From positions 1,542,501 through 1,606,500 of the forward strand of contig NZ_CP040093.1 of the NCBI RefSeq assembly GCF_006016075.1: DNA of 64,000 nucleotides, given 5' to 3'. The DNA comes from Caloramator sp. E03 (GTDB lineage Bacteria; Bacillota; Clostridia; Clostridiales; Caloramatoraceae). The notes under the pieces are model-generated. The model did not search any database. It was not told the origin of the DNA and saw only the letters and a list, made by a program, of their open reading frames with translations. The translations under genes were made by a program, and so were the position numbers. Shown here one piece after another: positions 7,337 to 62,772 of this stretch. The number at the start of each line of letters is the position of its first letter. The first letter of the stretch is position 1.

Positions 7337-7379
7337 GCTTATTCAAAAAGTTATTTACATTTGTTTATTATTTTTTTTA

Positions 7380-8726: not shown

Positions 8727-8774
8727 GCAATTGCCTCCTCTTAAGTTGATAAATAAAAAATGTTTTTTATATAA

Positions 8775-8824: not shown

Positions 8825-8883
8825 AAATAAAAAAAGATATAAACAAGTATGTTAATATGTTAGTATTAAATATAAATTTAAAA

Positions 8884-36245: not shown

Positions 36246-36321
36246 GCTTCATTGGCCCAGTCGGTAGGGCAACTGATTCGTAATCAGTAGGTCGGGGGTT
36301 CGAGTCCCCCATGAAGCTCCA
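36246..36321 (+). tRNA. tRNA-Thr (anticodon CGT)
   Basis: The cloverleaf folds fully: acceptor GCTTCAT/ATGAAGC, D-stem GCCC/GGGC, anticodon stem ACTGA/TCAGT with loop TTCGTAA (anticodon CGT), and T-stem GGGGG/CCCCC with loop TTCGAGT. CCA is encoded. The gene is 76 nt long. It is a single-gene unit with its own promoter and a terminator that has been split by an insertion sequence. Confidence 0.97.
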
Positions 36322-38325: not shown

Positions 38326-38421
38326 TTAAACAAATAAATAAAAAATAAATTTAAAATTAGTATTTATTGAATAAGATAAAATAAATATAATTATAAAAAT
38401 TTAAATAAAGGGGTGATTTTT

Positions 38422-39807
38422 TTGAGTACAAAAACTCAGACGGCTAAAGCAAATTTAAACAACAAGGGATTCTTTGACAGGTACTTTAAGCTTAAAGAAA
38501 ATAACACTTCGGTTAAGACAGAAGTTATTGCAGGTATAACTACTTTTCTTACTATGGCTTATATTATAGCTGTAAACCCATCTTTTTTATCAACGACTGG
38601 AATGGACAAGGGTGCTTTGGTTACTGCAACCTGTATTGCAGCAGGAGTTACAACTATAATAATGGGCTTTTATGCTAATCTTCCTTTTGCTCTTGCATCA
38701 GGTATGGGTCTTAATGCTTTCTTTGCTTTTACTGTTTGTGGTGTTATGAAGGTTTCATGGAAAGTGGCATTAACGGCTGTATTTATTGAAGGTATAATAT
38801 TTATAATTTTATCTCTTACAAAGGTTAGAGAACTTGTTGTAAATGCTATACCAAATTCCTTAAAGCTTGCGGTAAGTGCAGGTATAGGGCTTTTTATTGC
38901 ATTTATTGGATTTGAAGATGCTAAAATGATTGTTCTTAATGAAGCAACCCTTGTAACACTTGGTAAAATTGCAGATCCAAGGGTTATAATATGTCTTGTT
39001 GGTATTATAATAATTGGAGTACTTGTTCATAAAAATGTAAAAGGCGCTATACTATGGGGAATTATTACTTGTTCGGTAATAGCTTGGATTTATGCAATAA
39101 TAATCGGCCCTGAAAATGCATCAAAGCTTTATGATATACATCTTCCTTCAGCAGCTTTTTCAGTTTATGGAATAGGACCTATTGCAGGAAAATTTGATTT
39201 TTCATTTTTAAAGGACAGCAGAGCTTTATTAAATTTTCTTTCAATTATGATTACCTTCTTGTTTGTTGATTTCTTTGATACAGTTGGAACCCTTGTTGGA
39301 GTAGCTTCAAAGGCAAATATGTTTGATAAAAATGGGAAAGTTTTAAGGGCAGATAGAGCACTTTTAACTGATGCAATAGGTACAACCCTTGGAGCATGTG
39401 TAGGTGTTTCAACTGTTACAACATATGTCGAAAGTTCTGCTGGAGTAGTTGAAGGAGGAAGAACAGGACTTACAGCTGTTGTTACAGGAGTTTTATTTCT
39501 TCTTTCAATAGTTTTAGCACCTATATTTATGGCAATACCAGGATGCGCTACAGCACCAGCTCTTATAATAGTTGGACTTTTTATGCTTCAAAATGTTATC
39601 AAAATAGATTTCTTTGATTATACTGAGGCAATACCTGCATTTTTGGCAATAATACTTATGCCATTAACCTATAGCATAGCAAATGGACTTATGTTTGGTA
39701 TTGTATCTTATGTTGTATTTAACTTTCTTGGAGGTAAAAAAGAAAAAATATCTCCAACAATGTATATTCTTGCTATATTATTCATATTAAAAATGATATT
39801 TATGTAA
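38422..39807 (+). CDS. AzgA-type purine base permease (NCS2)
   Basis: 461-residue transporter with about 12-13 hydrophobic segments of the AzgA/PbuG branch, which imports adenine, guanine and hypoxanthine by proton symport. Typical blocks are EVIAGITTFLTMAYIIAVNP, ALASGMGLNAFFAFTV, DFFDTVGTLVGVASKANM and TYVESSAGVVEGGRTGLTAV. The TTG start at 38422 has AAAGGGG at 8 nt; the GTG at 38413 overlaps that site. It heads the purine region and is followed by its own terminator. No purine riboswitch is visible upstream. Confidence 0.93.
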   Translation: MSTKTQTAKANLNNKGFFDRYFKLKENNTSVKTEVIAGITTFLTMAYIIAVNPSFLSTTGMDKGALVTATCIAAGVTTIIMGFYANLPFALASGMGLNAFFAFTVCGVMKVSWKVALTAVFIEGIIFIILSLTKVRELVVNAIPNSLKLAVSAGIGLFIAFIGFEDAKMIVLNEATLVTLGKIADPRVIICLVGIIIIGVLVHKNVKGAILWGIITCSVIAWIYAIIIGPENASKLYDIHLPSAAFSVYGIGPIAGKFDFSFLKDSRALLNFLSIMITFLFVDFFDTVGTLVGVASKANMFDKNGKVLRADRALLTDAIGTTLGACVGVSTVTTYVESSAGVVEGGRTGLTAVVTGVLFLLSIVLAPIFMAIPGCATAPALIIVGLFMLQNVIKIDFFDYTEAIPAFLAIILMPLTYSIANGLMFGIVSYVVFNFLGGKKEKISPTMYILAILFILKMIFM

Positions 39808-39813
39808 TTTATT

Positions 39814-39848
39814 ATTCAGCATGTATTTTCAATACATGCTGAATTTTT
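39814..39848 (+). terminator. Intrinsic terminator after the purine permease
   Basis: A 14-bp perfect stem (39814-39827 with 39831-39844), three-base loop, followed by five T. Confidence 0.88.
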
Positions 39849-39868
39849 AAAAGGGCAGGTGAAGGAAA

Positions 39869-41542
39869 ATGAATACAAATAAAAAACAGATAGACATGGC
39901 ACTTGGAAAAGAAAAGGCAGAAATTGTACTAAAGAATGGTTTTGTAATAGATGTATTTAATGAGGATATTTTTAAAGCTGATGTTGCAATAGCAGAGGGT
40001 AAAATAATTGGTATTGGAGAATATGATGGTATAAAAGAGATTGATTGCAGTGGCAAATATATTTCACCTGGATTTATAGACTCTCATGTTCATATAGAGT
40101 CTTCAAAGGTTATTCCTAACACTTTTTCTTTAGAACTTTTAAAAAGGGGAGTTACAACATGTATTGCAGATCCTCACGAAATTGCAAATGTGCTTGGCAT
40201 TGAAGGAATTAAATTCATGATTGAAAATTCAAAACAGGCAGCTATAGATATATTTTTTATGATGCCCTCCTGTGTCCCAGCAACGGAATTTGAAGATAGT
40301 GGAGCAGTTCTTAGAGCAGAAGACTTAAAAATATTTAAATGTTATAAAGAGGTTTTAGGTCTTGGGGAAGTTATGGATGTTTATTCAGCAATAAATTTTA
40401 AAGAGGATATGATTGAAAAAATAAATACTTATAGTGATAAAAAAATAGATGGTCACTGCCCTTTAATAGATGAAAAAAGCCTAAATGCTTATATGCTGTT
40501 AGGAGTATGTACAGATCATGAATGTTTTGGTATTGAAGAGGCTTTAGATAAAATTAGAAAAGGAATGTATGTAATGATAAGAGAAGGCTCTGCTGCAAGA
40601 AATTTAAAAGGTCTGATAGGAGCTATAAACGATAAGAACTTTAGAAGGTTTTTATTTTGTACTGATGATAAAAGCATTTTAGATATTGTAAAGGAGGGTT
40701 CAATAGATTATAACATAAAAAAAGCAATAGAGTATAAAGTGGATCCTATAAAGGCAATTACAATAGCAACATTAAATGCAGCCCAGTGCTATGGATTAAA
40801 AAATAAAGGAGCTATTGCAATAGGCTATGATGCTGATATTGTTATACTTGATAATCTCTATAGTATAAAAATAAATGCAGTTTTAAGAAAAGGGAAAATT
40901 AATCCAGAGGTTAAGAATTTTGATTCAATAGATATAAAAAATTCTATGAATATTGATTATATTACAGAGGATAAACTTAAAATTAAATATGATGCAAAAA
41001 ATATTGATGTTATAAAGGTAATCAAAGGTTCTTTAATTACAGAAAAAGTTAAAAGGAATGTTGTTTTAAAGGATGGATATATAGATAGCATTGAGGGTGA
41101 AGATATTTTAAAGATAGGAGTATTTGAAAGACATAAAAATACAGGAAAATTTTCTTTAGGATTTATAGAGGGATTAGGGCTTAAAGGCTGTTCAATTGCA
41201 CAAACTATAGCCCATGATAGCCATAATATAATAGTTGTTGGAGATAATGATGCTGATATAACCTTTGCAGTAAACAGCCTTATAGATATAGGAGGAGGAA
41301 TAGTTGCAGTTTCAAGAGGCAGGATAATAGGTAAGATAAGCTTACCTGTTGGAGGGCTTATGACAACAGATTCAATAGATAAAGTAGTTTATAATTTGGA
41401 AAATCTATATGCATCAGTAAAAAGGTTTTTAATAGATAAGAATATAGACGTATTCTTGACTTTATCCTTTATGGCACTACCAGTGATACCAAAGTTTAAA
41501 ATAACTCCAAGAGGACTTTATGATTTTGAAAATGGATTTTAA
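39869..41542 (+). CDS. adeC: Adenine deaminase
   Basis: Metal-dependent amidohydrolase of 557 residues that turns adenine into hypoxanthine plus ammonia. Signatures include ISPGFIDSHVHIESSKVIPN, TTCIADPHEIANVLG, GLGEVMDV, DGHCP and CTDHECFGIEEALDKIRKGMYVMIREGSAARN, and the C-terminal block HDSHNIIVVGDNDADI. AGGTGAAGG lies before the ATG. It follows the permease terminator and probably has its own transcript. Confidence 0.96.
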   Translation: MNTNKKQIDMALGKEKAEIVLKNGFVIDVFNEDIFKADVAIAEGKIIGIGEYDGIKEIDCSGKYISPGFIDSHVHIESSKVIPNTFSLELLKRGVTTCIADPHEIANVLGIEGIKFMIENSKQAAIDIFFMMPSCVPATEFEDSGAVLRAEDLKIFKCYKEVLGLGEVMDVYSAINFKEDMIEKINTYSDKKIDGHCPLIDEKSLNAYMLLGVCTDHECFGIEEALDKIRKGMYVMIREGSAARNLKGLIGAINDKNFRRFLFCTDDKSILDIVKEGSIDYNIKKAIEYKVDPIKAITIATLNAAQCYGLKNKGAIAIGYDADIVILDNLYSIKINAVLRKGKINPEVKNFDSIDIKNSMNIDYITEDKLKIKYDAKNIDVIKVIKGSLITEKVKRNVVLKDGYIDSIEGEDILKIGVFERHKNTGKFSLGFIEGLGLKGCSIAQTIAHDSHNIIVVGDNDADITFAVNSLIDIGGGIVAVSRGRIIGKISLPVGGLMTTDSIDKVVYNLENLYASVKRFLIDKNIDVFLTLSFMALPVIPKFKITPRGLYDFENGF

Positions 41543-41700
41543 ATTAATAATAAGAATAAATTCAAATAAACGGTAAAAATCAAGCAATATCTGCCAAACA
41601 TATAATCCTACTTAATATGTAAATATTGTAAATAATACCATAAAGCGTATAATATAATTAAGAGGAAAATGAAGGAATTTTTGAAAAAGGAGGAGGTTGT

Positions 41701-42987
41701 TTGAAGGCTTTAATAAATGCTAACATCTATGATTTTATGAATTTTCAAAAAAATAAATATATATTATTTGATAATAAAATAGAGGAAATAGGTGATATGA
41801 AGGATTTTAAATACAAAGAGGAGGCTTATGACTGTAAAGATTCTATAGTTATGCCAGGGCTTATAAATTGTCATACTCATGTTTATTCTACCTTTGCAAG
41901 GGGAATGAACATGCCTTTTAATCCAAAGAACTTTATGGATATACTTTATCAGCTTTGGTGGAAGCTTGATGGAAATCTTGATAAGGAGGCAATATATTTT
42001 AGTGGACTTATCTATGGCATTGATTGTCTAAAGTGTGGGGTAACTACGATAATAGATCATCATGCAAGTGGCCTTTATATAAGGGGAAGCCTAATGGAAC
42101 TTAAAAAATCATTATGCGATTATTTAGGGTTAAGAGGGATATTTTGCTTTGAAAGCAGTGATAGGTTTAATATAGATGAATGTATTGAAGAGAATATTGA
42201 ATTTTGCAAGAAAGCCTCGGACAAGCACTGTGGAGTATTTGGTATGCATGCATCTTTAAGTTTGAATGATAAAAGCTTAAATAAAATATCTAAAGCTATA
42301 GAGAATACTCCAATACATGTACATGTTGCTGAGAGCATAGATGATGTATTGGACTGTTATAAGAAATATGGTAAATCGATAGTTGAAAGACTTGATAGCT
42401 TTAATCTTTTAAAGGAGAATTCTATTTTAGCTCATTGCGTGCATATAAATGAAAAGGAAGCACAGATAATATCTGAAAGGAATTGCTATGTTGTATTAAA
42501 TCCTACTTCCAATATGAACAATGCGGTCGGGGTTTCTAATTACGATGTACTAAGAGAAAATAACATAAAGTGTATGATTGGCAATGATGGCCTTGGGGCA
42601 AATATTACAAGGGATTATCTTAATATATCATTTGCTATGAAAAATAGATTGAAAAGCCCTACTAAATTTTCATTGGAGGATTTAAAAAATGTTATAAATA
42701 ATGGATACGAATATGTTTCAAAAATGCTTGGTATAAAAATAGGGAGAATAGAAAAGGGTTATTGTGCGGATATGATAGTAGTGCCCTATAATCCACCAAC
42801 TCCAATTGATGAATCCAATATATTAGGACATGTTTTTTATGGAATGTTTGATAATTTCCATCCCAGGTATGTATGGATAGATGGTAATTGTCTTTTAAAG
42901 GATTACAATCTTACCTTTGATGAAACTGATATATATGAAAAATCAAAAGAACAGGCCCAAAAGGTTTGGAGAAGGATAGAAAATTGA
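41701..42987 (+). CDS. ssnA: SsnA-type amidohydrolase
   Basis: 428-residue amidohydrolase matching the SsnA family of purine and urate clusters: IVMPGLINCHTHVYSTFARG (zinc ligands HTH), LWWKLDGNLDKEAIYFSGLIYG, CGVTTIIDHHAS, HVHVAES, NPTSNMNNAVG and GNDGLG, ending KVWRRIEN. It has a TTG start with GGAGG upstream. The exact substrate is not proven; a purine-derived intermediate is expected. About 158 bases upstream (41543-41700) hold only an AT-rich leader. Confidence 0.88.
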   Translation: MKALINANIYDFMNFQKNKYILFDNKIEEIGDMKDFKYKEEAYDCKDSIVMPGLINCHTHVYSTFARGMNMPFNPKNFMDILYQLWWKLDGNLDKEAIYFSGLIYGIDCLKCGVTTIIDHHASGLYIRGSLMELKKSLCDYLGLRGIFCFESSDRFNIDECIEENIEFCKKASDKHCGVFGMHASLSLNDKSLNKISKAIENTPIHVHVAESIDDVLDCYKKYGKSIVERLDSFNLLKENSILAHCVHINEKEAQIISERNCYVVLNPTSNMNNAVGVSNYDVLRENNIKCMIGNDGLGANITRDYLNISFAMKNRLKSPTKFSLEDLKNVINNGYEYVSKMLGIKIGRIEKGYCADMIVVPYNPPTPIDESNILGHVFYGMFDNFHPRYVWIDGNCLLKDYNLTFDETDIYEKSKEQAQKVWRRIEN

Positions 42988-42998
42988 GAGGTGAGTTT

Positions 42999-44081
42999 AT
43001 GGATTTAAGTACAAGTATAGGAGGTATAAGTTTAAAAAACCCTATTATGCCAGCATCAGGACCACTTGTTTCAAGCTATGAAAAGATGATTGCTCTTGAA
43101 AAAATGGGAGTTTCATGTATAGTATCAAAGACTATATCAAAGGAAGCTGCAAAGGTTCCAAGACCATGTATTATAGGTGATAATAACAGCATATATAATG
43201 CAGAGTTATGGTCTGAATATCCTTTTGAATTTTGGTTAAGTGATATTTTGCCAAAGTTAAAGAAAAACCTTAAGGTACCTTTGATAATAAGCGCTGGCTA
43301 TACTAAGGAAGATATGGAATTCTTGATTCCAAGGCTTGATGAATTTGCAGATGCCTTTGAAATATCAACCCATTATATAGGCAAGGAACTTAATGTTATT
43401 GGTGATACTGTAAAGACAATAACTAACCTTACTAAAAAGCCAGTTTTTATAAAAATAAGTCCTCATATTACAGATGTTCTGGAATTTGCAAGAGTGGTTA
43501 GGGAAAATAAAGCTGCTGGTATTGTTGCTATAAACTCCTTAGGTCCTGGAATGAAAATAGATTTAAAAAATAGAAGGGTTTTAGTTGGAAACGATAAAGG
43601 AGAACTTTGGATTTCAGGGCCTTCTATAAAGCCAATAGCCCTTGCAATAATAAATAGGATAAAGAGGTTTATGCCTGATTTTACTGTAATTGGAGTGGGA
43701 GGAATAAAAAACGCAGAGGATGTTTTAGAGTTTCTTCTTGCAGGAGCAGACGCTGTTCAGATTTTATCCTCTGCAATGCTAATGGGGAAGCAGATATATG
43801 AAAAGATAATTGAAGATCTGCCTATAGCCCTTGAAAAATACAATTTTAGTAGTGTAAAGGATGTTATTAAAACTTCCCTTGAAATACCTTTAGTTAAATT
43901 TGAGCCAAGCTATCCTAAAATTGATAAAAACAAATGTATTCTCTGTGGATTATGTGAAAAAATTTGCCCTTATTTTGCGTTAAATGTGGATAAAGAAGTT
44001 TATATTGATTATAAAAAATGCTTTGGATGCGGTCTTTGTCAGTCTAAATGCCCTGCAAAGGCTATATCGGCAGTTTTTTAA
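42999..44081 (+). CDS. PreA-like dihydroorotate-dehydrogenase-fold Fe-S protein
   Basis: 360 residues: an FMN barrel of the dihydroorotate/dihydropyrimidine dehydrogenase type (NPIMPASGPLVSSYEKM, IISAGY, FIKISPH, VGGIKNAEDVLEFLLAGADAVQI) fused to a C-terminal 2x[4Fe-4S] ferredoxin domain (CILCGLCEKICP and CFGCGLCQSKCP). Such proteins reduce pyrimidine rings with a PreT partner. No PreT gene is present here, so electrons may come from elsewhere. ATG 42999 has GAGGTGAG upstream. It probably reduces a purine ring intermediate (inference). Confidence 0.8.
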   Translation: MDLSTSIGGISLKNPIMPASGPLVSSYEKMIALEKMGVSCIVSKTISKEAAKVPRPCIIGDNNSIYNAELWSEYPFEFWLSDILPKLKKNLKVPLIISAGYTKEDMEFLIPRLDEFADAFEISTHYIGKELNVIGDTVKTITNLTKKPVFIKISPHITDVLEFARVVRENKAAGIVAINSLGPGMKIDLKNRRVLVGNDKGELWISGPSIKPIALAIINRIKRFMPDFTVIGVGGIKNAEDVLEFLLAGADAVQILSSAMLMGKQIYEKIIEDLPIALEKYNFSSVKDVIKTSLEIPLVKFEPSYPKIDKNKCILCGLCEKICPYFALNVDKEVYIDYKKCFGCGLCQSKCPAKAISAVF

Positions 44082-44094
44082 GGAGGTGCTTTTT

Positions 44095-44874
44095 TTGAAA
44101 ATAAAAAATTTTTTCAGGGCAGAGAGTCTTAAAGATGCTTATGAAGCATTAACTAATGGAGGTACTATACTTGGAGGAGGAGCTTTTTTACATCTTTTAG
44201 ATAATGAAGTTGAAATTGCTGTTGACCTTTCAAGATTAAATCTAAACTATATATTAGAAAAAGAAGATGTAATTGAGATAGGCTCCTATACAACGTTAAA
44301 AGAAATAGAAGATAGTAGTATCCTTTCATCATATTTTAATGGAATACTATCAAAAGCAGCATCAGTTATAGCTGGGGTACAGGTTAGGAATATTGCAACT
44401 ATAGGGGGATGTATAGGAGGATGCTATGGCTTTTCTGACATTTTAACTTGCCTTTTGGCCCTTGATGCAAAGGTTCAGTTATATAATAGAGGAATAGTTT
44501 CCATGGAAGAATTTATTGAAAATAAAGATACAAAGGATATTATTGTAAAAGTAATAATTAAAAAGGATGAAAAAAAAGCTTCGTTTTTAAGTATGAGAAA
44601 CAGCTATACTGATTTTTCCATGTTAAATGTTGCAGTTTCAAACTTAAAAGGAGGTATAAAAATAGCCGTTGGAGCAAGACCTCTTGTAGCTTCTTATGCA
44701 TATAAGGCAATGGATTATTTAAAAGAGAATGGTTTGAATGATGAAACAATAAAAAGGGCAGGAGAAATAGCAAGGGATACATTAAACTTTGGAAGTGATA
44801 TCAGGGCTTCAAGTGAATATAGAAAGGAGCTTTGCAGCGTTCTTGTAAGAAGGGGACTTGAGGAGGTGATATAG
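44095..44874 (+). CDS. Molybdenum hydroxylase FAD subunit, set 1
   Basis: 259-residue FAD-binding subunit of the xanthine dehydrogenase family, with GGTILGGGAFLHLL and RNIATIGGCIGGCYGFSDILTCL marking the flavin pocket and a CO-dehydrogenase-type C-terminal domain. The TTG at 44095 has AAGGAGG at about 8 nt; the longer reading from 43984 overlaps the preceding gene and is not family-like. It shares the stop/start base at 44874 with the Fe-S subunit gene. Part of set 1 (FAD, Fe-S, Mo). Confidence 0.9.
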   Translation: MKIKNFFRAESLKDAYEALTNGGTILGGGAFLHLLDNEVEIAVDLSRLNLNYILEKEDVIEIGSYTTLKEIEDSSILSSYFNGILSKAASVIAGVQVRNIATIGGCIGGCYGFSDILTCLLALDAKVQLYNRGIVSMEEFIENKDTKDIIVKVIIKKDEKKASFLSMRNSYTDFSMLNVAVSNLKGGIKIAVGARPLVASYAYKAMDYLKENGLNDETIKRAGEIARDTLNFGSDIRASSEYRKELCSVLVRRGLEEVI

Positions 44875-45326
44875 TGAAAATACATGTAAGGGTAAACGAA
44901 AAGGATAGGGAAATGGAGATTCAAGGAAGTGAAACAGTTTATGATATACTAAAAAGCCTTAACATAACAAGCGTTAGAAAATCCTGTGATACTGGAGTTT
45001 GTGGGCTTTGTACTGTACTTTTAAATGGTAAGCCAATACCATCCTGTTCATATCTTGCAGCTAAAGCTGATGGATGTTCAATAACAACTATTGAGGGAAT
45101 AGAAGAAGAGGCAGAGAGATTTGGAAAACTTATGAATGAAGAAGGTGCTGTTCAATGTGCATACTGTTCCCCTTCCTTTGTACTTGCGGTAGTATCTATG
45201 AAAGACAATTTAAAGAGCTTTGACGATGAGAGTATAAATAGATATCTTGCAGGTAACCTTTGCAGATGCTCAGGGTATCAAGTACATTTAAGAGCAATTA
45301 AAAGGTATTTAGGGGTGATAGAATGA
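44874..45326 (+). CDS. Molybdenum hydroxylase 2Fe-2S subunit, set 1
   Basis: 150 residues carrying two [2Fe-2S] clusters. The plant-type ferredoxin cluster is in SCDTGVCGLCTVLLNGKPIPSC, and the second cluster is in QCAYCSPSF and NLCRCSGY. It passes electrons from the Mo centre to FAD. The second-cluster motif CAYCSPS differs from the usual CGFCTPG seen in set 2. It uses a GTG start overlapping the previous stop by one base. Confidence 0.93.
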   Translation: MKIHVRVNEKDREMEIQGSETVYDILKSLNITSVRKSCDTGVCGLCTVLLNGKPIPSCSYLAAKADGCSITTIEGIEEEAERFGKLMNEEGAVQCAYCSPSFVLAVVSMKDNLKSFDDESINRYLAGNLCRCSGYQVHLRAIKRYLGVIE

Positions 45327-47632: not shown

Positions 47633-47633
47633 T

Positions 47634-48206
47634 TTGAAAATAGATGGAGTAATACTTGCAGCAGGTTTTTCAACAAGGGCTAATACTTTTAAAATGACTT
47701 TGGAATTTAAAGGTAAGACCATATTAGAAAATGTCATAGATAATATGAGTTTATATGTTGATAGAATAATCATTGTTGGAGGATATAGGATTGAGGAAAT
47801 AGAGAAAATAGTCAAAAGATATGAAAAGGTTGAACTTATATTTAATGATAAATATGAAGAGGGTATGTTTAGTTCTATAAAGAAAGGGATATCTAAGGTA
47901 AGTGGAGATAAATTCTTTTTAACGCCAGGGGATTACCCTTTAATTAAGCCCTTTGTATATAAAAAGCTTTTGGAATGTGAAGAGGATATTGCAATTCCCG
48001 TATATAATGGAAAGAGGGGGCATCCAATCCTTATAAATAGCAGGCTAATAGATAATATTTATAATCCAAAATATACAAATTTAAGAGAATTTATAAAGGA
48101 TAATAATGTTCAATTTATTGATGTTGACTGCATTGGTATTATTAAGGATATTGATACAATGGAGGATTATAGGGAAGCATTAAATCTTAACGACAAGGGG
48201 GGATAA
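47634..48206 (+). CDS. mocA: MocA-like molybdenum cofactor cytidylyltransferase
   Basis: 190-residue nucleotidyltransferase with LAAGFSTRANTFK at the N-terminus, a GDYPL metal site near residue 100, and RGHPILI. MocA attaches CMP to molybdopterin, giving the form used by many bacterial hydroxylases. It has a TTG start with GGAGAG upstream and sits between the two hydroxylase sets, so both probably use the cytosine form. Confidence 0.85.
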   Translation: MKIDGVILAAGFSTRANTFKMTLEFKGKTILENVIDNMSLYVDRIIIVGGYRIEEIEKIVKRYEKVELIFNDKYEEGMFSSIKKGISKVSGDKFFLTPGDYPLIKPFVYKKLLECEEDIAIPVYNGKRGHPILINSRLIDNIYNPKYTNLREFIKDNNVQFIDVDCIGIIKDIDTMEDYREALNLNDKGG

Positions 48207-48208
48207 CT

Positions 48209-50350
48209 TTGATAAGGGATATAGGAGAACCTATTAAAAGGGTTGATGCTAAGTCAAAGATATCTGGAGATGAGAAATATACCTGTGATGTAATTTTTAA
48301 AGATATGCTCTATGCAAAGACTTTAAGGTCAAGGGAAGTTAGGGCAAAAATAAAGTCGATAAAATACCCTGATCTTACAGAGGGTTATTATATAATAGAT
48401 AAAAATGATGTGCCAAAGCTAAACAGAGTTAAAATATTAAAATATGATATGCCAATTTTTGCTGATGGGGTAGTAAATTATTTAGGAGAGCCAATAGCAA
48501 TAGTAGTTGGTAAAGATAAAAAGGTGATAGAGGATATAATTTCAAAGATAGAGGTTGAATATGAAAAGATAGAACCTATACTTTCAATAGAAGAGGGGCT
48601 TTGCACAAAACAACCAATATATGGTGATAACAACCTGTTTGCAGATTATAAGTATTGTAAAGGGAATATTGATGATGCAAAAAAGAGGGCAGCTTATGTA
48701 TTTGAGGGAGAATATGAGACGGGTTATCAGGAGCAGTTTTACTTAGAAACACAGGGGGTTATAGCGACCTTTGAGGATGATAAAGTTACGGTTTATGGTT
48801 CTATGCAATGTCCTTACTATATTAAAAATGCTCTTTTAGAATGTCTTGGATTTGATGAGGATAAAGTAAGGGTTGTTCAGTTTGCAACAGGAGGAGGTTT
48901 TGGAGGGAAAGAGGACTATCCTTCTTTAATAGCAGCACAGGCTGCCTGTGCTGCTATTAAGACTAAAAAGCCTGTAAAAATTGTTTACGATAGGGATGAA
49001 GATATAGAATTTACAACAAAAAGGCATCCTTCAAAGATAAGGCTTAAAAGCTATCTTGATTCAGAATATAAAATAATAGGTATGGAAGCAGAAATAATAC
49101 TTGATGCTGGAGCCTATGCAAGTTTATCAGAGGTTGTTCTTCAAAGAGCTATGTTTGCAATAAGTGGGGTATATAATATTGAAAACCTTTGCGTAAAGGG
49201 AAAGGCAGTTGCAACTAATAAGGCAATTAGTGGTGCTTTTAGAGGCTTTGGAGCACCACAGGCTTTCTTTGCAATTGAAATGCATATAGAGCATACGGCA
49301 AAGAATTTTAAAATTGATCCTTTGGAGTTTAAGGTAAAGCATCTTATAAAAAAAGGGGATAAATCCTCAACAGGAGGAATATTTAGAGAAGAGGTAAGGC
49401 TAAAAGAGATGATAGATAAAGCTTTAGAAATGTCATCCTACAATGAGAAGAAGATAAAATTTAAACAGGAAAAAAAAGATGGTAAATTAAAGGGAATAGG
49501 AATGAGCCTTTTCTTTCATGGAGGTGGATTTACTGGAAGTGGAGAGAGGGATCATATTAAGGCAAAGGTTAAACTTGTTAAAGATGAAGAAACTGTTGAA
49601 ATACTTGTTTCAAATGTTGAGATGGGACAAGGTGCCTCAACAACTCTTAGAAAAATAGTAGCCTACACTCTTAACTTACCAATTGAAAAGATAATATTTA
49701 ATAACCCTGATACTGATAAAGTCCCAGATTCTGGACCTACTGTTGCATCAAGGACAACGGTTATAGTAGGACAGATTTTAAAGGTAGCTTCAGAAAATTT
49801 AAAGAAAAGATGGAATGAGGGTAAAAGAGTTGAGATAGAAGAGAGCTTTAAATATCCTGAAGAATATTTTTGGGATGGTGAGAATTTTATAGGGGATGCA
49901 TATACATCCTATTCCTTTGGGGTAAATGTTGCAGAGGTTGAAGTTGATCCTATAACTTATGAGTGTACTATTAATAACTTTTATGCAGTTTATGATATAG
50001 GAAAAGCAATAGATGAAAGGATAGTAAAGGGACAAATAGATGGAGGTATTGTTCAGGGCCTTGGCTATGGAGGAATTGAAGTTATGGAAAATATAGATGG
50101 AAGATTTAAACAAAGAACAAGTTCTGATTATATAATCCCTACATCGATGGATGTTCCAAATATTTATAGCCATCTTTTATGTGAGCCTTTTAAATATGGT
50201 CCTTATGGTGCAAAGGCTCTCGGAGAATTACCTATTGTTGGGGCAGCTCCAGCTTATGCTCTTGCCATTGAAGATGCTTTAGACATTGATATATGCAGTA
50301 TACCTGTAAGGCCAGAGAAGATTTTGGAGGTAAAAAAATATGGAAAGTAA
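48209..50350 (+). CDS. Molybdenum hydroxylase catalytic subunit, set 2
   Basis: 713-residue molybdopterin-binding subunit. It has the classical GGGFGGKE (Glu235), GAFRGFG substrate arginine, and catalytic Glu673 in LGELPI, all as in xanthine dehydrogenases. It differs from the set 1 subunit in several of these pocket residues, so the two likely hydroxylate different positions or bases. It uses a TTG start after a run of six G. Confidence 0.93.
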   Translation: MIRDIGEPIKRVDAKSKISGDEKYTCDVIFKDMLYAKTLRSREVRAKIKSIKYPDLTEGYYIIDKNDVPKLNRVKILKYDMPIFADGVVNYLGEPIAIVVGKDKKVIEDIISKIEVEYEKIEPILSIEEGLCTKQPIYGDNNLFADYKYCKGNIDDAKKRAAYVFEGEYETGYQEQFYLETQGVIATFEDDKVTVYGSMQCPYYIKNALLECLGFDEDKVRVVQFATGGGFGGKEDYPSLIAAQAACAAIKTKKPVKIVYDRDEDIEFTTKRHPSKIRLKSYLDSEYKIIGMEAEIILDAGAYASLSEVVLQRAMFAISGVYNIENLCVKGKAVATNKAISGAFRGFGAPQAFFAIEMHIEHTAKNFKIDPLEFKVKHLIKKGDKSSTGGIFREEVRLKEMIDKALEMSSYNEKKIKFKQEKKDGKLKGIGMSLFFHGGGFTGSGERDHIKAKVKLVKDEETVEILVSNVEMGQGASTTLRKIVAYTLNLPIEKIIFNNPDTDKVPDSGPTVASRTTVIVGQILKVASENLKKRWNEGKRVEIEESFKYPEEYFWDGENFIGDAYTSYSFGVNVAEVEVDPITYECTINNFYAVYDIGKAIDERIVKGQIDGGIVQGLGYGGIEVMENIDGRFKQRTSSDYIIPTSMDVPNIYSHLLCEPFKYGPYGAKALGELPIVGAAPAYALAIEDALDIDICSIPVRPEKILEVKKYGK

Positions 50351-50816
50351 AATAAGATTTATTTTAAATGGTGAGGGAGTAGAAGTTAAATGTAGTCCTC
50401 TAAAAAGGCTTTTAGATGTTTTAAGGGAAGATTTCAATCTTTTAGGAGTTAAAGAAGGTTGTGGAAAAGGGGAATGTGGTGCATGTTCTGTTTTAATTGA
50501 TGGTGAGCTTATAAATTCCTGCATATATCCTATTGCAATGGTTGAGAACAAATCGGTTGTTACAATTGAAGGTTTCAGAAAAACTAAAAAATTTGAAATA
50601 TTAAGCAAAGCTTATGAGGATGTTGGGGCAGTACAATGTGGCTTTTGTACTCCAGGGATGATAATGGCTTCTGAAGCTCTTTTGAGTAAAATACCAAATC
50701 CTTCTGATAAAAATATAAGGGAAGCTCTTTCAGGTAATCTTTGTAGGTGCACTGGATATAACATGATTGTAGAGGCTATAAAGCTTGCAGCTAAAAGAGG
50801 TGAAGGGATATGGTAA
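50340..50816 (+). CDS. Molybdenum hydroxylase 2Fe-2S subunit, set 2
   Basis: 158 residues with GCGKGECGACSVLIDGE, QCGFCTPGM and NLCRCTGY, the classical motifs for two [2Fe-2S] clusters. Its ATG overlaps the catalytic-subunit gene by 11 nt, and its end overlaps the FAD-subunit gene by 7 nt. Gene order here is Mo, Fe-S, FAD, the mirror image of set 1. Confidence 0.94.
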   Translation: MESKIRFILNGEGVEVKCSPLKRLLDVLREDFNLLGVKEGCGKGECGACSVLIDGELINSCIYPIAMVENKSVVTIEGFRKTKKFEILSKAYEDVGAVQCGFCTPGMIMASEALLSKIPNPSDKNIREALSGNLCRCTGYNMIVEAIKLAAKRGEGIW

Positions 50817-51631
50817 AGGCATATAAACCTTCATGTTTAAAAGATGCATTAGAAATTATAAACAATAAAAAATGTTTACTCTTTGCTGGTGGAACGGACA
50901 TTATGATAAAGAAAAAGAGTTTTTATAGTGCTGAATATAACTTTGAAAACGTACTCTTCTTGCATTCTATAGATGAATTAAAGGGTATAGTGAGTGAAAA
51001 TAGTTATATTAAAATAGGATCTTGTTGCACATTAAGTTATATAGTACAAAGTAAACTAATACCTAAAACTTTTAAAGATGTGGTAGAGTCTATGGCATCT
51101 CCTGCTATAAGGAATGTTGCAACAATAGGAGGCAATATTTGTAATGCATCTCCAGCTGGAGATACTCTACCTTATCTTTATGCTGTAAATGCTATTTTAA
51201 CACTTGAGAGTTTAAGCGGCAAAAGAGAGGTTTATATTGGAGATTTTATAAAAGGACCTAAGATAATAGATATAAAAAATGATGAAATATTAACTGAAGT
51301 TAAGATACCTGTTGAAGATTTTGATATTTCTATATTTAAAAAGGTTGGTACAAGAAAATCAACAGCTTTGTCAAAGGTTTCCTTTGTAGGACTTGCAAAG
51401 AAAAAAAACTTAAAGGATATAAGGATTGCCTTTGGAGCCGTTGGTCCAACAGTTGTGAGAAGTAGGGAGATTGAAGAGAAAATAATTAATATGGATATAA
51501 AAGATATTCATAAAATAATTGATATGTATAGCAATATAATTACTCCTATCGATGATCAAAGGTCTACTTCATTATATAGAAAAGAGGTATCCTTAAGACT
51601 TCTTGAAAACTTTTTATTGTCTTTTAAATAA
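50810..51631 (+). CDS. Molybdenum hydroxylase FAD subunit, set 2
   Basis: 273 residues with FAGGTDIM and RNVATIGGNICNASPAGDTLPYL for FAD binding, and a C-terminal CO-dehydrogenase flavoprotein domain. It is encoded last in set 2 and overlaps the Fe-S subunit gene. With 48209-50816 it makes a complete three-subunit hydroxylase. Confidence 0.92.
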   Translation: MVKAYKPSCLKDALEIINNKKCLLFAGGTDIMIKKKSFYSAEYNFENVLFLHSIDELKGIVSENSYIKIGSCCTLSYIVQSKLIPKTFKDVVESMASPAIRNVATIGGNICNASPAGDTLPYLYAVNAILTLESLSGKREVYIGDFIKGPKIIDIKNDEILTEVKIPVEDFDISIFKKVGTRKSTALSKVSFVGLAKKKNLKDIRIAFGAVGPTVVRSREIEEKIINMDIKDIHKIIDMYSNIITPIDDQRSTSLYRKEVSLRLLENFLLSFK

Positions 51632-51649
51632 TTTTTTATAGGTGATGTT

Positions 51650-52876
51650 ATGGAAAAGGAATTTAAAGAAAAAGAAATTTTAAAACTTGCTGAGAACTAT
51701 AAAGAGGATATTAGCAAGTTTTTGAGGGATATGATAGCTATCCCAAGTGAGAGTGGTAATGAGAAGGAGATTATACTTAGAATTAAAGAGGAAATGATAA
51801 AGGTAGGCTTTGATAAGGTAGAGATAGATCCAATGGGAAATGTACTTGGATATATTGGGAAAGGGAAACACATAATTGCAATGGATGCTCATATAGATAC
51901 TGTTGGTATTGGAGATATTTCTCTTTGGGATTATGACCCTTATATGGGTTATGAGGATGATGAGATAATAGTAGGAAGAGGAGCAAGCGACCAAGAGGGT
52001 GGAATGGCATCAATGGTATATGCGGGTAAGATAATAAAGGATTTAAACCTTTATGATGATTATACATTGATTGTTACGGGAACGGTTCAGGAAGAGGATT
52101 GTGATGGACTTTGCTGGCAGTATATCATAAATGAAGACAAGATAAGACCAGAATTTGTTGTAAGTACAGAGCCAACATCCTGCAAAATTTATAGAGGGCA
52201 AAGAGGAAGAATGGAGATTAAAGTTACAACAAATGGTATAAGTTGCCATGGTTCAGCCCCTGAGAGAGGAGATAATGCTATATATAAGATGGCACCTATA
52301 ATAAATGATTTAAAAGGATTATCAGATAACCTTGGTTATGATGAGTTTTTAGGAAAAGGTTCTCTAACGGTATCTGAGATTTTCTTCTCATCTCCTTCAA
52401 GATGTGCTGTTGCAGATAAATGTACAATTTCAATAGATAGAAGGCTCACATTGGGCGAAACATGGCAAAGTGCACTTATAGAAATTGAAAATCTTCCATC
52501 AGTTAAAAATGCAAAGGCACAGGTTTCTATGTATAGCTATGATAAGCCTTCCTATACAGGACTTATATATCCTACGGAATGCTATTTTCCAAGCTGGATG
52601 ATTCCAGAGGATCATGATGTGTGCAAAATTCTGGTTAATTGCTATAAAAGACTGTTTAAAGATGAGCCTGTAATTGATAAATGGACATTTTCTACAAATG
52701 GAGTAGCTATAATGGGAAGATACAATATACCATGTATTGGTTTTGGCCCAGGACATGAGGAGGAAGCCCATGCTCCAAATGAAAAAACTTTTAAAAGTGA
52801 GCTTGTAAAATGCGCAGCAATGTATGCACTAATACCTATGATGTATGTAAATTTTATACAAAATAAGGAGGGTTAA
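51650..52876 (+). CDS. ygeY: YgeY-type metal-dependent hydrolase (M20 family)
   Basis: 408-residue M20-type zinc hydrolase of the YgeY family. Visible features: [13 protein letters not shown], the metal site [36 protein letters not shown] and [15 protein letters not shown]. YgeY members occur in urate/purine clusters and are described as linked to selenium metabolism. It probably hydrolyses an amide from an opened purine ring (inference). It is followed two bases later by ygeW. Confidence 0.88.
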
Positions 52877-52877
52877 T

Positions 52878-53861
52878 ATGCAAACTTTATTTAGAGGGAG
52901 ACATTTTATAACTCTTCAGGACTATACAAATGAAGAGATAGAAACTATGCTTGAGGTTTCTTTTGATTTAAAAAAGAAATTTGCGATGGGAATTAATACT
53001 CCATACCTTCTTTACAAAACAATATTTTTAATGTTCTTTGAGCAGTCAACAAGGACAAGAAATTCAATGGAGGCAGGCATAGCCCAGCTTGGAGGACATG
53101 CTAATTATCTTGATACGAGCACTATGCAAATAAGTCACGGTGAAAGTGCAAAGGATACAGCTATAATACTTTCAAGATTTGGACACGGAATTGCTTGTAG
53201 GAACTGTTTTTGGGGGATTGGGAATAAATATTTAATGGAAATGGCAAAGTATTCAACTGTACCAATAATGAACCTTCAATGCGATCTTTATCATCCTATG
53301 CAGGCCCTTGCAGATTTGATGACTATCAAGGAAAAATTTGGTGATACAAACAAGCTAAAAGTATCGATAATCTGGGCCTATGCAACAAGCCATAAAAAGC
53401 CTATATCAGTTCCAGTGTCTCAGGTTCTTTTGTTCCCAAGGTTTGGTATGGATGTAACTCTTGCTTATCCTATAGGTTATGAACTACCAGACTGGGTAAT
53501 AGAAAAGGCAAAGAATTATGCAGAGAAATATAAGGGTAGTTTAAAGATAACTCATGATATGGAGGAGGCATATAGGGATGCAGATGTTGTTATACCAAAG
53601 AATTGGGGTAGCTGGGTTACCAATCCAAGTAAGGAGGCTATAGATGACCTTCTTGAAGCAAACAAACACTGGAAGTGTACTGAAGATATGATGAAGTTAA
53701 CAAGCAAAGACTCTATATATATGCATGCTCTTCCAGCAGATAGAAATAATGAGGTTGAAGATTCTGTAATAGATGGACCACATTCTGTCGTATATGATGA
53801 GGCTGAAAACAGGCTACATACAGCAAAAGCTGTTATGACTCTCCTTATAGGAGGAAAGTGA
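52878..53861 (+). CDS. ygeW: YgeW-type knotted carbamoyltransferase
   Basis: 327-residue member of the aspartate/ornithine carbamoyltransferase superfamily, YgeW branch. The carbamoyl-phosphate site is seen as FEQSTRTRNSMEAG, followed by LDTSTMQISHGESAKDTAIILSRF and the LQCDLYHPMQALADLMTI block. YgeW does not use aspartate or ornithine; it acts in purine/urate-linked clusters. It may release carbamoyl phosphate for ATP formation, though no carbamate kinase gene lies in this window. Confidence 0.9.
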   Translation: MQTLFRGRHFITLQDYTNEEIETMLEVSFDLKKKFAMGINTPYLLYKTIFLMFFEQSTRTRNSMEAGIAQLGGHANYLDTSTMQISHGESAKDTAIILSRFGHGIACRNCFWGIGNKYLMEMAKYSTVPIMNLQCDLYHPMQALADLMTIKEKFGDTNKLKVSIIWAYATSHKKPISVPVSQVLLFPRFGMDVTLAYPIGYELPDWVIEKAKNYAEKYKGSLKITHDMEEAYRDADVVIPKNWGSWVTNPSKEAIDDLLEANKHWKCTEDMMKLTSKDSIYMHALPADRNNEVEDSVIDGPHSVVYDEAENRLHTAKAVMTLLIGGK

Positions 53862-53862
53862 T

Positions 53863-55233
53863 ATGTATATGCTGTTGAAAAACATATCTAAGGTTTTAAC
53901 CTTTGATGATAATGACAATATATTTGATGGCGTAGATATATTGATTAAGGATAATGAAATTGTAAAGATAGGTAAAAATATTGAAATAGATAACCTTAGT
54001 GGTAGTGTTGTTGATTGCAAAGGCTTAATTGCAATGCCGGGATTTGTGAACACACATCACCATCTTTATCAAACACTTTTCAGGGGAATAGATGAGGTCC
54101 AGGAAAAGCCTCTTTTTCCATGGCTCATAGGGCTTTATGAGTTTTGGAAACATATAGACAGTGAGGCTGTTTATTATGGTTCTATGGTAGGATTCTGTGA
54201 GCTTTTAAAGACTGGATGTACTACAACAATGGATCACCATTATGTTTTTCCAAAAGGTAAGAGTCCATACCTAATAGATGAGCAGATAAAAGCCTCAAGA
54301 GATATAGGTATACGATTTCATGCTACAAGAGGCTCTATGTCAAGGGGGAAAAGTAAAGGAGGACTTCCACCGGATTGTGTTGTTCAGGATGAGGAGGAAA
54401 TACTTTTAGATTGTGAAAGAGTGATAGATAAATATCATGACAGCAAAAAATTTGCTACGAACAGGATAGCCTTGGCCCCCTGTTCACCCTTTTCAGTAAC
54501 TTTATCTTTAATGGAAAAGTGTAGAGATCTTGCAAGGGAGAAAAAAGTCATGCTTCATACTCACCTTGCTGAAACTTTAGATGAAGAAAAGTATTGCATA
54601 GAAAAGTATGGTAAAAGACCTGTTGAGCTTATGGAAAGTATAGGATGGGTTGGAGAGGATGTTTGGTTTGCCCATGTAATACATGTAAATGATGATGAAA
54701 TTAAGATTTTAAAAGGAAGTGGTGTTGCTCACTGCCCATCTTCAAATATGAAGCTCTCAAGTGGAATATGTAGGACAACGGAACTTGTTAAAGCAGGAGT
54801 TAATGTTGGCATTGCTGTTGATGGCAGTGCTTCAAACGATGGCTCTAATATGTGGGAGGAAGTTAGAAGGGCTTATCTTCTTAATCATTTAAAGTATGGT
54901 AATGAAGGGCTTAGTGCTTATGAAGTTTTAAAAATGGCAACAAAGGGAGGAGCTAAAGTTTTAGGAAGGGACGATATAGGAGAGTTGTCCTGCGGTAAAG
55001 CTGCAGATATCATACTTTTGGATATAAGTGATATTGCTTATGCAGGCTGTCATAATCCTATAGTTGGTATAGTAACCTGTGGAAACTCAAGCCTTGTTAA
55101 TATGACAATAGTTAATGGTAAAATACTTGTAAAGGATGGTCACCTTACCTTAGTTGATGAAGATATGATAAAAAATGAAGCTAATAAAATAGCAATGGAA
55201 ATTGTAAGAAGAGAAAGAGAGAAAATGTATTAA
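53863..55233 (+). CDS. 8-oxoguanine deaminase-like amidohydrolase
   Basis: 456-residue zinc amidohydrolase with AMPGFVNTHHHLYQTLFRG, GCTTTMDHHYVFPKG, HATRGSMSRGKSKGGLPPD, APCSPFSV, HTHLAETLDEEKY and AVDGSASNDGSNMWEEVR. This set matches characterised 8-oxoguanine deaminases, which yield uric acid. In a purine cluster that role is sensible, though guanine or other oxopurines are alternatives. It starts one base after ygeW. Confidence 0.82.
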   Translation: MYMLLKNISKVLTFDDNDNIFDGVDILIKDNEIVKIGKNIEIDNLSGSVVDCKGLIAMPGFVNTHHHLYQTLFRGIDEVQEKPLFPWLIGLYEFWKHIDSEAVYYGSMVGFCELLKTGCTTTMDHHYVFPKGKSPYLIDEQIKASRDIGIRFHATRGSMSRGKSKGGLPPDCVVQDEEEILLDCERVIDKYHDSKKFATNRIALAPCSPFSVTLSLMEKCRDLAREKKVMLHTHLAETLDEEKYCIEKYGKRPVELMESIGWVGEDVWFAHVIHVNDDEIKILKGSGVAHCPSSNMKLSSGICRTTELVKAGVNVGIAVDGSASNDGSNMWEEVRRAYLLNHLKYGNEGLSAYEVLKMATKGGAKVLGRDDIGELSCGKAADIILLDISDIAYAGCHNPIVGIVTCGNSSLVNMTIVNGKILVKDGHLTLVDEDMIKNEANKIAMEIVRREREKMY

Positions 55234-55318
55234 AATCCAAAATTATTGTTTATAATAGAAATAATAGTTCAATCTTTATAATTTTCAATGTTATATTATA
55301 ACAAAGGAAGGGATGATT

Positions 55319-57001
55319 ATGATGGGTAAGGTGCCAAGTGATATTGAAATAGCACAAAAAGCTAAAATGAAGGATATTAGGGAAATTGCAAAATCTGCCG
55401 GGATACTTGAAGATGAGCTTGAATTATATGGAAAATACAAAGCAAAAGTTTCCTTAGATATTTTTAAAAGATTAAAGGATAAAAAGAACGGAAAGCTTGT
55501 GCTTGTTACGGCTATAACTCCAACACCAGCAGGAGAGGGAAAATCAACTACAACTGTAGGTCTTGGACAAGCACTAAATAAGATTGGTAAGAATGCAATA
55601 ATAGCATTAAGAGAACCTTCTTTAGGCCCTGTATTTGGAATTAAAGGAGGGGCAGCAGGAGGAGGATATGCTCAAGTTGTACCTATGGAAGATATTAATC
55701 TCCACTTTACAGGGGATATGCATGCAATAACCTCTGCAAACAACCTACTATCAGCAGCTATAGATAATCACATCCATCAGGGAAACAGTCTTAGAATAGA
55801 TTCCAGGCAAATTATATGGAAAAGAGTTTTAGACATGAACGATAGAGCATTAAGGGATGTTGTAATTGGCCTTGGGGGGAAAGCAAACGGTTTTGTAAGG
55901 CAGGATGGCTTTATGATAACTGTTGCTTCTGAGATTATGGCAATACTTTGCTTATCGGAAGATCTTATGGATTTAAAAAGAAGGATAGGCAAAATAATAA
56001 TTGGATATAATTTCGATGGCGAACCTGTAACTGCAAAGGATTTGAAGGTTGACGGTGCTATGACTCTTCTTTTAAAGGATGCAATAAAGCCTAATCTTGT
56101 TCAAACTCTTGAAAATACTCCTGCACTTATTCATGGAGGTCCCTTTGCAAACATTGCCCATGGATGTAATAGCTTGATTGCAACAAAACTTGGATTGAAA
56201 CTTGCAGATTATTTAATTACTGAAGCAGGTTTTGGTGCAGATCTTGGTGCTGAAAAATTCCTTAATATAAAATGTAGGTATGGGGGATTAAATCCATCAG
56301 CTGTGGTTATCGTTGCAACAATTAGGGCTTTAAAGATGCATGGAGGAGTTAAAAAGACTGATCTTAATATAGAAAACCTTGAAGCTCTTGATAAAGGTTT
56401 TGCAAATCTTTCAAAACAGGTTGAAAACATAAAGAAGTTTGGAATCCCTGTTATGGTTGCAGTTAATAGATTTTCTGCTGATACAGAATCTGAAGTAGAA
56501 CTATTAATTAGAAAATGTAAAGAATATGGCGTGGAGGTTGCTCTTAATGAAGTATGGGAAAAAGGTGGAGAAGGCGGAATAGAAATGGCTGAGAAACTTG
56601 TAGACCTATTAGATAGGGAACAATCAAATTATAAACCTCTATATGACATTGAAAAATCCATACCAGAAAAGATAGAAACAATCGTTAAAGAAATATATGG
56701 AGGAGAGGGAGCTGACTTCTCACCAAAAGCATTAAAGGAAATAAAAAAACTTGAGGAACTTGGACTTGACAAAATGCCTGTATGTATGGCAAAAACTCAG
56801 TATTCCTTATCTGACAACCCTCAGCTTTTAGGGGCTCCAAAGGGTTTTAGGATTACTGTAAATGATGTTAGAATATCAGCTGGTGCTGGTTTTATAGTAT
56901 GCCAGACAGGTGATATAATGACAATGCCGGGACTTCCAAAAGTTCCAGCAGCTGAAAACATAGATATAGATGAGAATGGAGTTGTAACAGGACTGTTTTA
57001 A
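55319..57001 (+). CDS. fhs: Formate-tetrahydrofolate ligase
   Basis: Makes 10-formyl-THF from formate and ATP, or runs in reverse to make ATP. The 560 residues show [73 protein letters not shown] and [20 protein letters not shown], characteristic of FTHFS. In purine fermenters this enzyme recovers ATP from the formyl/formimino carbons. GAAGGG lies 6 nt before ATG 55319; 55313 and 55322 are alternatives. Confidence 0.96.
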
Positions 57002-60224: not shown

Positions 60225-60233
60225 GAGGTTAGT

Positions 60234-61703: not shown

Positions 61704-61707
61704 TTTT

Positions 61708-62760: not shown

Positions 62761-62772
62761 AGAGGTGAGCTT

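Follow-up and report, generated by a model that had tools for sequence, protein, structure and literature searches.

A reductive urate pathway island in Caloramator sp. E03 and a remote operon that probably completes it

The genome of Caloramator sp. E03 is a single contig of 2,984,770 bp (97.8% complete), and a 64,000-nucleotide stretch of it, called the window here, carries a run of purine-catabolism genes at positions 38413 to 55233. This run, the island, lies on a single strand (+), and its genes mostly abut. The 12 genes from ssnA to the 8-oxoguanine-deaminase-like gene (41701 to 55233) are separated by gaps of −11 to +18 bp, taking the ATG at 42999 as the start of uacX where the open reading frame list had a TTG at 42966. 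A preliminary description made from the sequence alone had called these genes mostly overlapping on one strand; all the genes it named are present on the + strand, and its wording is fair for genes that overlap or abut. The features are listed below, with bit scores given here and throughout as score/curated NCBIfam cut-off. G and L numbers denote genomes and loci (G002 is of the same genus), and C1 denotes coordinates on the contig.

38413 to 39807, +, purine permease of the Xan_ur_permease family (Pfam PF00860, 139.6 bits; G002 orthologue 36 to 39% like E. coli GhxQ)
39869 to 41542, +, adenine deaminase (TIGR01178, 607/472.5, over cut-off)
41701 to 42987, +, SsnA-type aminohydrolase, predicted to open the ring (PRK07203, 423.6/444; syntenic with ssnA of relatives)
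42999 to 44081, +, putative UacX with DHO_dh and 4Fe-4S domains (Pfam)
44092 to 44874, +, flavin adenine dinucleotide (FAD) subunit of hydroxylase Xdh1, assigned by gene context (glyceraldehyde dehydrogenase beta and XdhB models, both under cut-off)
44874 to 45326, +, Xdh1 2Fe-2S subunit (NF043084, 137/217)
45323 to 47632, +, Xdh1 molybdenum subunit, XdhD type (insert with a Glu equivalent to E. coli XdhD Glu606)
47634 to 48206, +, MocA-type molybdenum cofactor cytidylyltransferase (TIGR03310, 150.7/186.45)
48209 to 50350, +, molybdenum subunit of hydroxylase Xdh2, without the XdhD insert (profile scores, 34-row alignment)
50340 to 50816, +, Xdh2 2Fe-2S subunit (NF043084, 175.6/217)
50810 to 51631, +, Xdh2 FAD subunit (NF043083, 163/310)
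51632 to 51649, +, 18-bp gap where G002 has hyuA (comparison with relatives)
51650 to 52876, +, YgeY, M20 hydrolase predicted to cleave ureido groups (TIGR03526, 712/321.5, over cut-off)
52878 to 53861, +, short YgeW-like carbamoyltransferase with a WAYxxxxxKPxSVP loop (profiles, alignment, conservation)
53863 to 55233, +, 8-oxoguanine-deaminase-like amidohydrolase (PRK08203, 587.6/532, over cut-off)
55313 to 57001, +, formate-tetrahydrofolate ligase (FTHFS; 962/652, over cut-off)
59205 to 60224, +, MoCF/MoeA-like molybdopterin protein (PF00994; homologue beside the cluster in G002, G003, G023, G033 and G110)
60234 to 62760, +, modABC molybdate transporter (ModA and ModB over cut-off; ATPase under the ModC cut-off, assigned by context)
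62773 to 63567, +, XdhC-family maturation factor (NF045664, 233.9/350)

The island is a UacX-type reductive (anaerobic) urate pathway cluster with syntenic relatives in its taxonomic order. The SsnA-type protein comes slightly short of the cut-off of either SsnA model (423.6/444 and 391.7/455.5), and the next non-SsnA family scores 166.6, i.e., 257 bits lower. Pfam assigns the adjacent PreA-like protein a DHO_dh domain and 4Fe-4S matches; an FAD domain was not among the hits. The protein fits UacX, known as the substitute for YgfK in C. difficile (PMC12507026), as well as the X1 dehydrogenase family, which has hyuA, ygeW, ygeY, ssnA, xdhABC, and permease neighbors (PMC4016543); the match is to the published domain and neighbor description, not to the C. 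difficile sequence. Since UacX is a known YgfK replacement and sits in the island, the missing ygfK is explained, as the preliminary description had anticipated in suggesting that another protein there might fill this role. In a profile search of the genome, no YgfK was found over the cut-off (best, 291/835), and a YgfK hidden elsewhere was rejected, as the three best matches span only positions 426 to 887 of 1012.

A UacX match (E ≤ 1e−60) was present in 33 of 117 genomes, comprising Caloramator sp. E03 itself, 13 at 53 to 73% identity, and 19 at 38 to 42%. Loci were examined in 20 of these 32 relatives, namely, all 13 close and 7 of the 19 distant ones. The gene order ssnA-uacX-xdh1-mocA-xdh2 was found in nine close relatives (G002, G003, G023, G049, G076, G017, G110, G103, and G115). 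Gene content and synteny bear out the earlier proposal of a purine/urate cluster related to the ygeW/ygeY/ssnA system. As an instance of a known pathway type, the island is genuine and well preserved, and its gene set is split.

The two molybdenum hydroxylases can be told apart. Five of their six subunits score best with xanthine-dehydrogenase models, and all six lie under the curated cut-offs. Across 34 aligned hydroxylases, the XdhD insert and the equivalent of Glu606 occur in 10 (E. coli XdhD, Xdh1, and its eight orthologues), while the insert is a gap in the other 24, Xdh2 among them. The preliminary description would have been refuted by homology searches placing the hydroxylases with nicotinate or aldehyde oxidases instead of xanthine/purine enzymes. 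The outcome is largely in its favor: five subunits are closest to xanthine dehydrogenases, the Xdh1 FAD subunit is closest to glyceraldehyde dehydrogenase with XdhB second, and Xdh1 carries the XdhD insert. Glu606 is the structural-model-based reason offered for 2,8-dioxopurine formation by XdhD (PMC12507026). Orthologues of Xdh1 in relatives are 37 to 38% identical to E. coli XdhD; given that C. difficile XdhD is only 25.63% like the E. coli enzyme (PMC12507026), the insert may not define the whole XdhD type. Marked by this insert, Xdh1 is likely the urate reductase (urate to 2,8-dioxopurine), and Xdh2 likely hydroxylates hypoxanthine/xanthine (or guanine). The division of labor could be otherwise, because clusters with an Xdh2-type enzyme and without Xdh1 exist: in G112, G073, and G091, an Xdh2-type enzyme adjoins uacX, a separate long hydroxylase is present, and there is no Xdh1.

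The carbamoyltransferase had been described as YgeW. It has the proline-containing loop of YgeW (WAYxxxxxKPxSVP), which is absent from the genome's own ornithine carbamoyltransferase (OTC), but at 327 amino acids (aa) it scores far under the YgeW models (202/453 and 190/500) and separates from YgeW rows of 396 to 427 aa in a 22-row tree that has one very long OTC branch. It is a short sister type of YgeW by sequence, not YgeW proper, and is 82 to 94% identical in the full-length copies of G002, G003, G017, and G110. Both G017 and G110 have two copies of a short YgeW-like gene close to their cluster, and in G049 one copy is in two fragments with another nearby (loci L081, L094, and L084). The 8-oxoguanine-deaminase-like enzyme likely provides entry of (8-oxo)guanine as urate, with guanine coming in as 8-oxoguanine. 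Homologues lie beside or within ∼8 kb of the module in all six relatives examined there (70 to 87% identity); in two of these, the homologue is outside the run of module genes. There is no mention of 8-oxoguanine in the main text of PMC12507026, and among the literature matches listed, none was on point for 8-oxoguanine deaminase and anaerobic urate use, judged by title and abstract.

The island has neither hyuA nor ygeX. Eight relatives have a cluster in which xdh2 and ygeY are both visible; six of them carry hyuA immediately upstream of ygeY. In the remaining two (G049 and G076), a 490-aa protein takes its place, and the G049 copy best matches an NCS1-type transporter, under cut-off. Seven of the nine close relatives with the shared gene order have a YgeV-type activator gene ahead of ssnA, where Caloramator sp. 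E03 has 158 bp, and none was found in the window except for a far-off 147-aa partial match. No YgeX over cut-off was found in the genome profile search (best, 32.4/532); at E ≤ 1e−60, a YgeX match is present in 93 of 225 genomes of the order. A D-hydantoinase over cut-off (465.9/393) is encoded at C1:558674-560011, within a tight run of three genes, PALP2-PALP1-HyuA, at C1:558-563 kb, ∼1.03 Mb from the island. PALP1 (416 aa) is a threonine-synthase-like pyridoxal phosphate (PLP) protein, PALP2 (498 aa from the start used) is a cysteine-synthase-like PLP protein, and HyuA has 459 aa. In G002, hyuA lies inside the island, and a PALP1-PALP2 pair lies beside it, divergent from the permease, with no further PALP1 or PALP2 match outside this flank. 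Thus, the three enzyme functions that the Caloramator sp. E03 island lacks relative to G002 are found together in the remote operon. The preliminary description had supposed that proteins of the island cover the missing roles; for hyuA and ygeX, the remote hydantoinase-PALP1-PALP2 operon most likely does so instead. Of the genes it would have sought elsewhere in the genome, hyuA is represented by this hydantoinase, ygeX and ygfK were not found over their cut-offs, and a carbamate kinase gene exists, with arginine deiminase and OTC genes next to it. Another hydantoinase-like protein is encoded at C1 2.78 Mb (L012); it is only 28 to 30% like the hydantoinases.

We consider it probable that Caloramator sp. 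E03 has a complete but split urate pathway in which PALP1/PALP2 stand in for YgeX. We infer every reaction in this organism, and the service of the remote operon to the pathway, as follows. Adenine would be imported and deaminated to hypoxanthine, Xdh2 would oxidize hypoxanthine/xanthine towards urate, and the 8-oxoguanine deaminase would convert 8-oxoguanine to urate. Xdh1 (XdhD type) would reduce urate to 2,8-dioxopurine, UacX and SsnA would reduce and open the ring, and the second ring would be opened by the hydantoinase of the remote operon. The YgeW-like enzyme and YgeY would then remove two ureido groups, giving carbamoyl phosphate, from which carbamate kinase would make ATP, and 2,3-diaminopropionate, which PALP1/PALP2 of the remote operon, substituting for YgeX, would cleave in a PLP-dependent reaction. 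Both the hydantoinase and the last step would have been relocated from the island to the C1:558-563 kb operon. From known chemistry, the two oxidations that take hypoxanthine to urate would be offset by the two reductions that lead on to dihydro-2,8-dioxopurine, and this balance would account for a single operon having two hydroxylases.

In sequence, PALP1 most resembles threonine synthases (291 bits for the top solved structure versus 37 for E. coli YgeX). It is over the general thrC cut-off (TIGR00260, 228/167), just under PRK08197 (289/303), and under the YgeX model TIGR03528 (32.4/532). Four solved threonine synthases carry the Arg of an NPxR..GQKT motif, which presumably binds phosphate; in 93 of 94 PALP1 rows this position is Leu, Cys, or Met, and in one the motif was unmatched. 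At the place of E. coli YgeX Asp120, which we take to be catalytic, all 94 rows have Thr. PALP2 is nearest to cysteine synthases. Both proteins match Pfam PF00291, by which a published survey of SsnA neighborhoods marks YgeX (PMC12507026), so that a neighborhood map based on PF00291 would count them as YgeX.

Co-occurrence was assessed in 225 genomes of the order with E value thresholds of 1e−120 (YgeY), 1e−60 (YgeX), 1e−90 (PALP1), and 1e−50 (PALP2), which gave matches in 75, 93, 14, and 36 genomes, respectively. YgeY was present in 13 of 14 genomes with PALP1 versus 62 of 211 without (P = 3e−6) and in 32 of 36 with PALP2 versus 43 of 189 without (P = 5e−14). Among YgeY genomes, PALP1 was found in 9 of 10 lacking YgeX versus 4 of 65 having it (P = 5e−8). 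When each genus was counted once per YgeX state, a rough correction for relatedness that is not tree based, PALP1 was present in 8 of 9 without YgeX versus 2 of 13 with it (P = 0.0015). The same exclusion appeared among the 33 UacX genomes (PALP1 in four of five without YgeX and in none of 28 with it). All 32 YgeY genomes with PALP2 also had YgeX or PALP1. The ygeY gene was within 20 kb of PALP1 in 8 of the 13 genomes with both and of PALP2 in 18 of 32. Some genomes of the order also carry PALP2 by itself, without a pathway gene visible nearby (L087, L083, L080, and L085).

A pattern scan of a collection of 84,980 species yielded at least 547 confirmed PALP1 relatives, and the counts that follow use the best 80 of 547. 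PALP2 was found in the available stretch at 61 of these loci. A core gene (ygeY, ssnA, ygeW, ygfK, or uacX) was found at 43, a count that takes in short-type ygeW at ≥45% identity, and at 38 when the short carbamoyltransferase is left out; 29 had ygeY, 8 of them with ygeX as well. Carriers include Oscillibacter, Flavonifractor, Blautia, and Treponema. No paper on point for PALP1/PALP2-type enzymes in urate clusters was found in the literature, judged by title and abstract, and the word "threonine" is absent from the main text of PMC12507026. The broader proposal, that PALP1 and PALP2 are a second, unrecognized enzyme solution for the diaminopropionate end, replacing or acting beside YgeX across Bacillota, Treponema, and others, seems to us evenly balanced. 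In it, PALP1 may act on one stereoisomer and PALP2 may handle or interconvert the other, and the pair would have come with the hydantoinase as the remote operon, replacing the island's copies.

Several observations weigh against a complete pathway ending in PALP1/PALP2. The main counter-evidence is that PALP1 and YgeX coexist in some clusters: both are present in 4 genomes of the order and share 9 of the 80 loci, e.g., in Desulfosporosinus. PALP1 therefore need not be a replacement and may act elsewhere, e.g., on one stereoisomer. No core gene is visible at 37 of the 80 loci, 10 of which are stretches of ≥20 kb, and the draft genome G164 has YgeY with neither YgeX nor PALP1. The remote hydantoinase is only 41 to 46% identical to its 14 best-matching counterparts. 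On the island side, SsnA, the hydroxylase subunits, and the carbamoyltransferase are under curated cut-offs, the top model for the Xdh1 FAD subunit is glyceraldehyde dehydrogenase beta (118 bits), with XdhB second (81 bits), and among the 20 uacX loci, distant G079 has no pathway neighbor and G052 has ssnA only. Finally, the PALP1 tree groups the Caloramator copy, on a long branch, with Fusobacteriota/Peptococcaceae-type loci (support, 99/85) and not with its own family, which points to horizontal acquisition. Those loci have PALP1, HyuA, and carbamate kinase with no SsnA or close YgeY in view; a hydroxylase and a carbamoyltransferase are near in the loci examined in detail, and an M20 hydrolase 38% like YgeY is nearby in L129. 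They perhaps represent an undescribed related heterocycle pathway, and the remote operon might serve such a related but different heterocycle. Fusobacteriota and Peptococcaceae-type loci of this kind are L129, L130, L131, L132, and L134, where PALP1, hydantoinase, and carbamate kinase genes occur together, some with a hydroxylase, an M20 hydrolase, or a carbamoyltransferase. In Moorella (L133 and L135, 5600 to 15200) PALP2, hydroxylase, PALP1, hydantoinase, and YgeW-like carbamoyltransferase genes form one run.

The coexistence of PALP1 and YgeX at 9 of the 80 loci lends some weight to a second explanation, that the remote operon completes the pathway while PALP1/PALP2, rather than being diaminopropionate ammonia-lyases, use a different intermediate as substrate (a ureido amino acid or the opposite stereoisomer), either in addition to the known steps or in their place. 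PALP2 also lies beside YgeX in several clusters, and the Thr of PALP1 in place of Asp120 is consistent with a different reaction. Set against these points, the strong exclusion between YgeX and PALP1 within the order makes this the less likely, if still appreciable, alternative to a pathway in which the pair replaces YgeX.

It is unlikely that the island is instead a truncated, decaying urate pathway that stops short of pyruvate, salvaging nitrogen and carbamoyl phosphate and excreting ureidomethyl-hydantoin or a ureido compound, with an unrelated remote operon. The hyuA gene, the YgeV-type gene, and the PALP pair of the G002 island and flank are all missing in and beside the Caloramator sp. 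E03 island, and the modest identity of the remote HyuA to its counterparts points the same way. However, the remaining genes are open and abutting, YgeY (87%) and the carbamoyltransferase (94%) are highly similar to those of G002 and both act after HyuA, and the three missing enzyme functions reappear in one operon.

The FTHFS had been proposed to conserve energy within this system. It is the sole copy in the genome and lies beside the cluster in only one of six relatives whose flank was examined, the same-genus G002, and it was rejected as a module gene because of this poor conservation and its single copy; it is a neighbor only. The reductive urate pathway as published in PMC12507026 releases no formyl unit. 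The sole match for formiminotransferase, which the preliminary description had listed among the genes to look for, is a glutamate formimidoyltransferase beside urocanate hydratase, both over cut-off, as in histidine breakdown; it was therefore rejected as a mark of the xanthinase route. That older clostridial route leads to glycine and formimino-tetrahydrofolate, with FTHFS making ATP from formyl-tetrahydrofolate. It is very improbable here, although no search was aimed at xanthinase or glycine reductase, since the adjacent FTHFS and the formimidoyltransferase that would speak for it are accounted for in these ways, and the reductive route is the one to which UacX, SsnA, YgeY, and the carbamoyltransferase belong.

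PMC12507026 and the commentary PMC12990295 describe the reductive urate pathway for E. coli and C. difficile. Caloramator sp. E03 has in common with it an XdhD-type reductase, UacX for YgfK, an SsnA-type aminohydrolase, YgeY, and a carbamoyltransferase, and also a hydantoinase and a carbamate kinase encoded elsewhere in the genome. Compared with that account, it lacks a YgeX over cut-off, has a remote hydantoinase and the PALP1/PALP2 pair, carries two three-subunit molybdenum hydroxylases in one operon and a short carbamoyltransferase, and has adenine deaminase and the 8-oxoguanine-deaminase-like enzyme built into the island. The X1 dehydrogenase neighborhoods (PMC4016543) have the X1 gene, hyuA, ygeW, ygeY, ssnA, xdhABC, the permease, and carbamate kinase in common with it, whereas its hyuA and carbamate kinase genes are outside the island and the PALP pair is unmentioned in the X1 section of that paper. 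Genes of the ygeW-ygfK-ssnA-ygeY, xdh-related, and pbuX types are shared with the DioR σ54 regulon described for Clostridiales (PMC6615313). In contrast to that regulon, there is no YgeV-type gene in or beside the island (a statement for this region only, not for the rest of the genome) and no -24/-12 excess in the window, where σ54 promoters were rejected as a signal (30 -24/-12-like matches with ≤2 mismatches versus 27.9 expected). The clostridial xanthinase pathway (PMC12507026, PMC3519856) has anaerobic purine use and an FTHFS in the genome in common, but its chemistry differs.

The pathway type itself is already known, and the new element is the PALP1/PALP2 pair. If the pair does carry out the diaminopropionate step, a survey based on PF00291 merges different enzymes, a search for ygeX would miss such degraders, and genes annotated as threonine or cysteine synthase would belong to purine catabolism. 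The two-hydroxylase operon suggests redox-neutral fermentation of adenine or hypoxanthine via the reductive route.

Downstream of FTHFS, the MoeA-like, modABC, and XdhC-type genes (59205 to 63567) probably belong to the block functionally, would serve molybdate uptake and cofactor maturation, and extend the block to 63567. They are parted from FTHFS by IS200-type and IS6-type transposase genes; G002 has one 205-aa reading frame at the place of the transposases and keeps the MoeA-like-modABC-XdhC order.

The replication origin lies at ∼7.3 to 9.1 kb of the window. The dnaA gene is at 7380 to 8726 with dnaN and gyrB adjoining, GC skew changes sign at ∼8 kb, and five of the seven perfect DnaA boxes fall in 7259 to 9082 (0.85 expected across the window). 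The island starts ∼30 kb from dnaA, in line with its earlier placement beside the origin. Transposase genes were found at 36507 to 37682, 57186 to 57659, and 58043 to 59083. The first encodes an ISL3-type protein of 391 aa on the − strand, identical to that encoded on the same strand at 16651 to 17826, and the copy at 36507 to 37682 borders the island. A tRNA-Thr (CGT) gene lies just upstream of this bordering copy at 36246 to 36321; an Rfam scan at gathering thresholds gave nothing except tRNA. An identical copy of the IS200-type transposase that separates FTHFS from the molybdate genes (57186 to 57659) is found at C1 ∼2.30 Mb (L011, 13205 to 13678). Just past the downstream end of the window, two IS1634-type transposase genes lie in tandem (L013, 12191 to 13921 and 14283 to 16013), and their 576-aa products differ by one residue.

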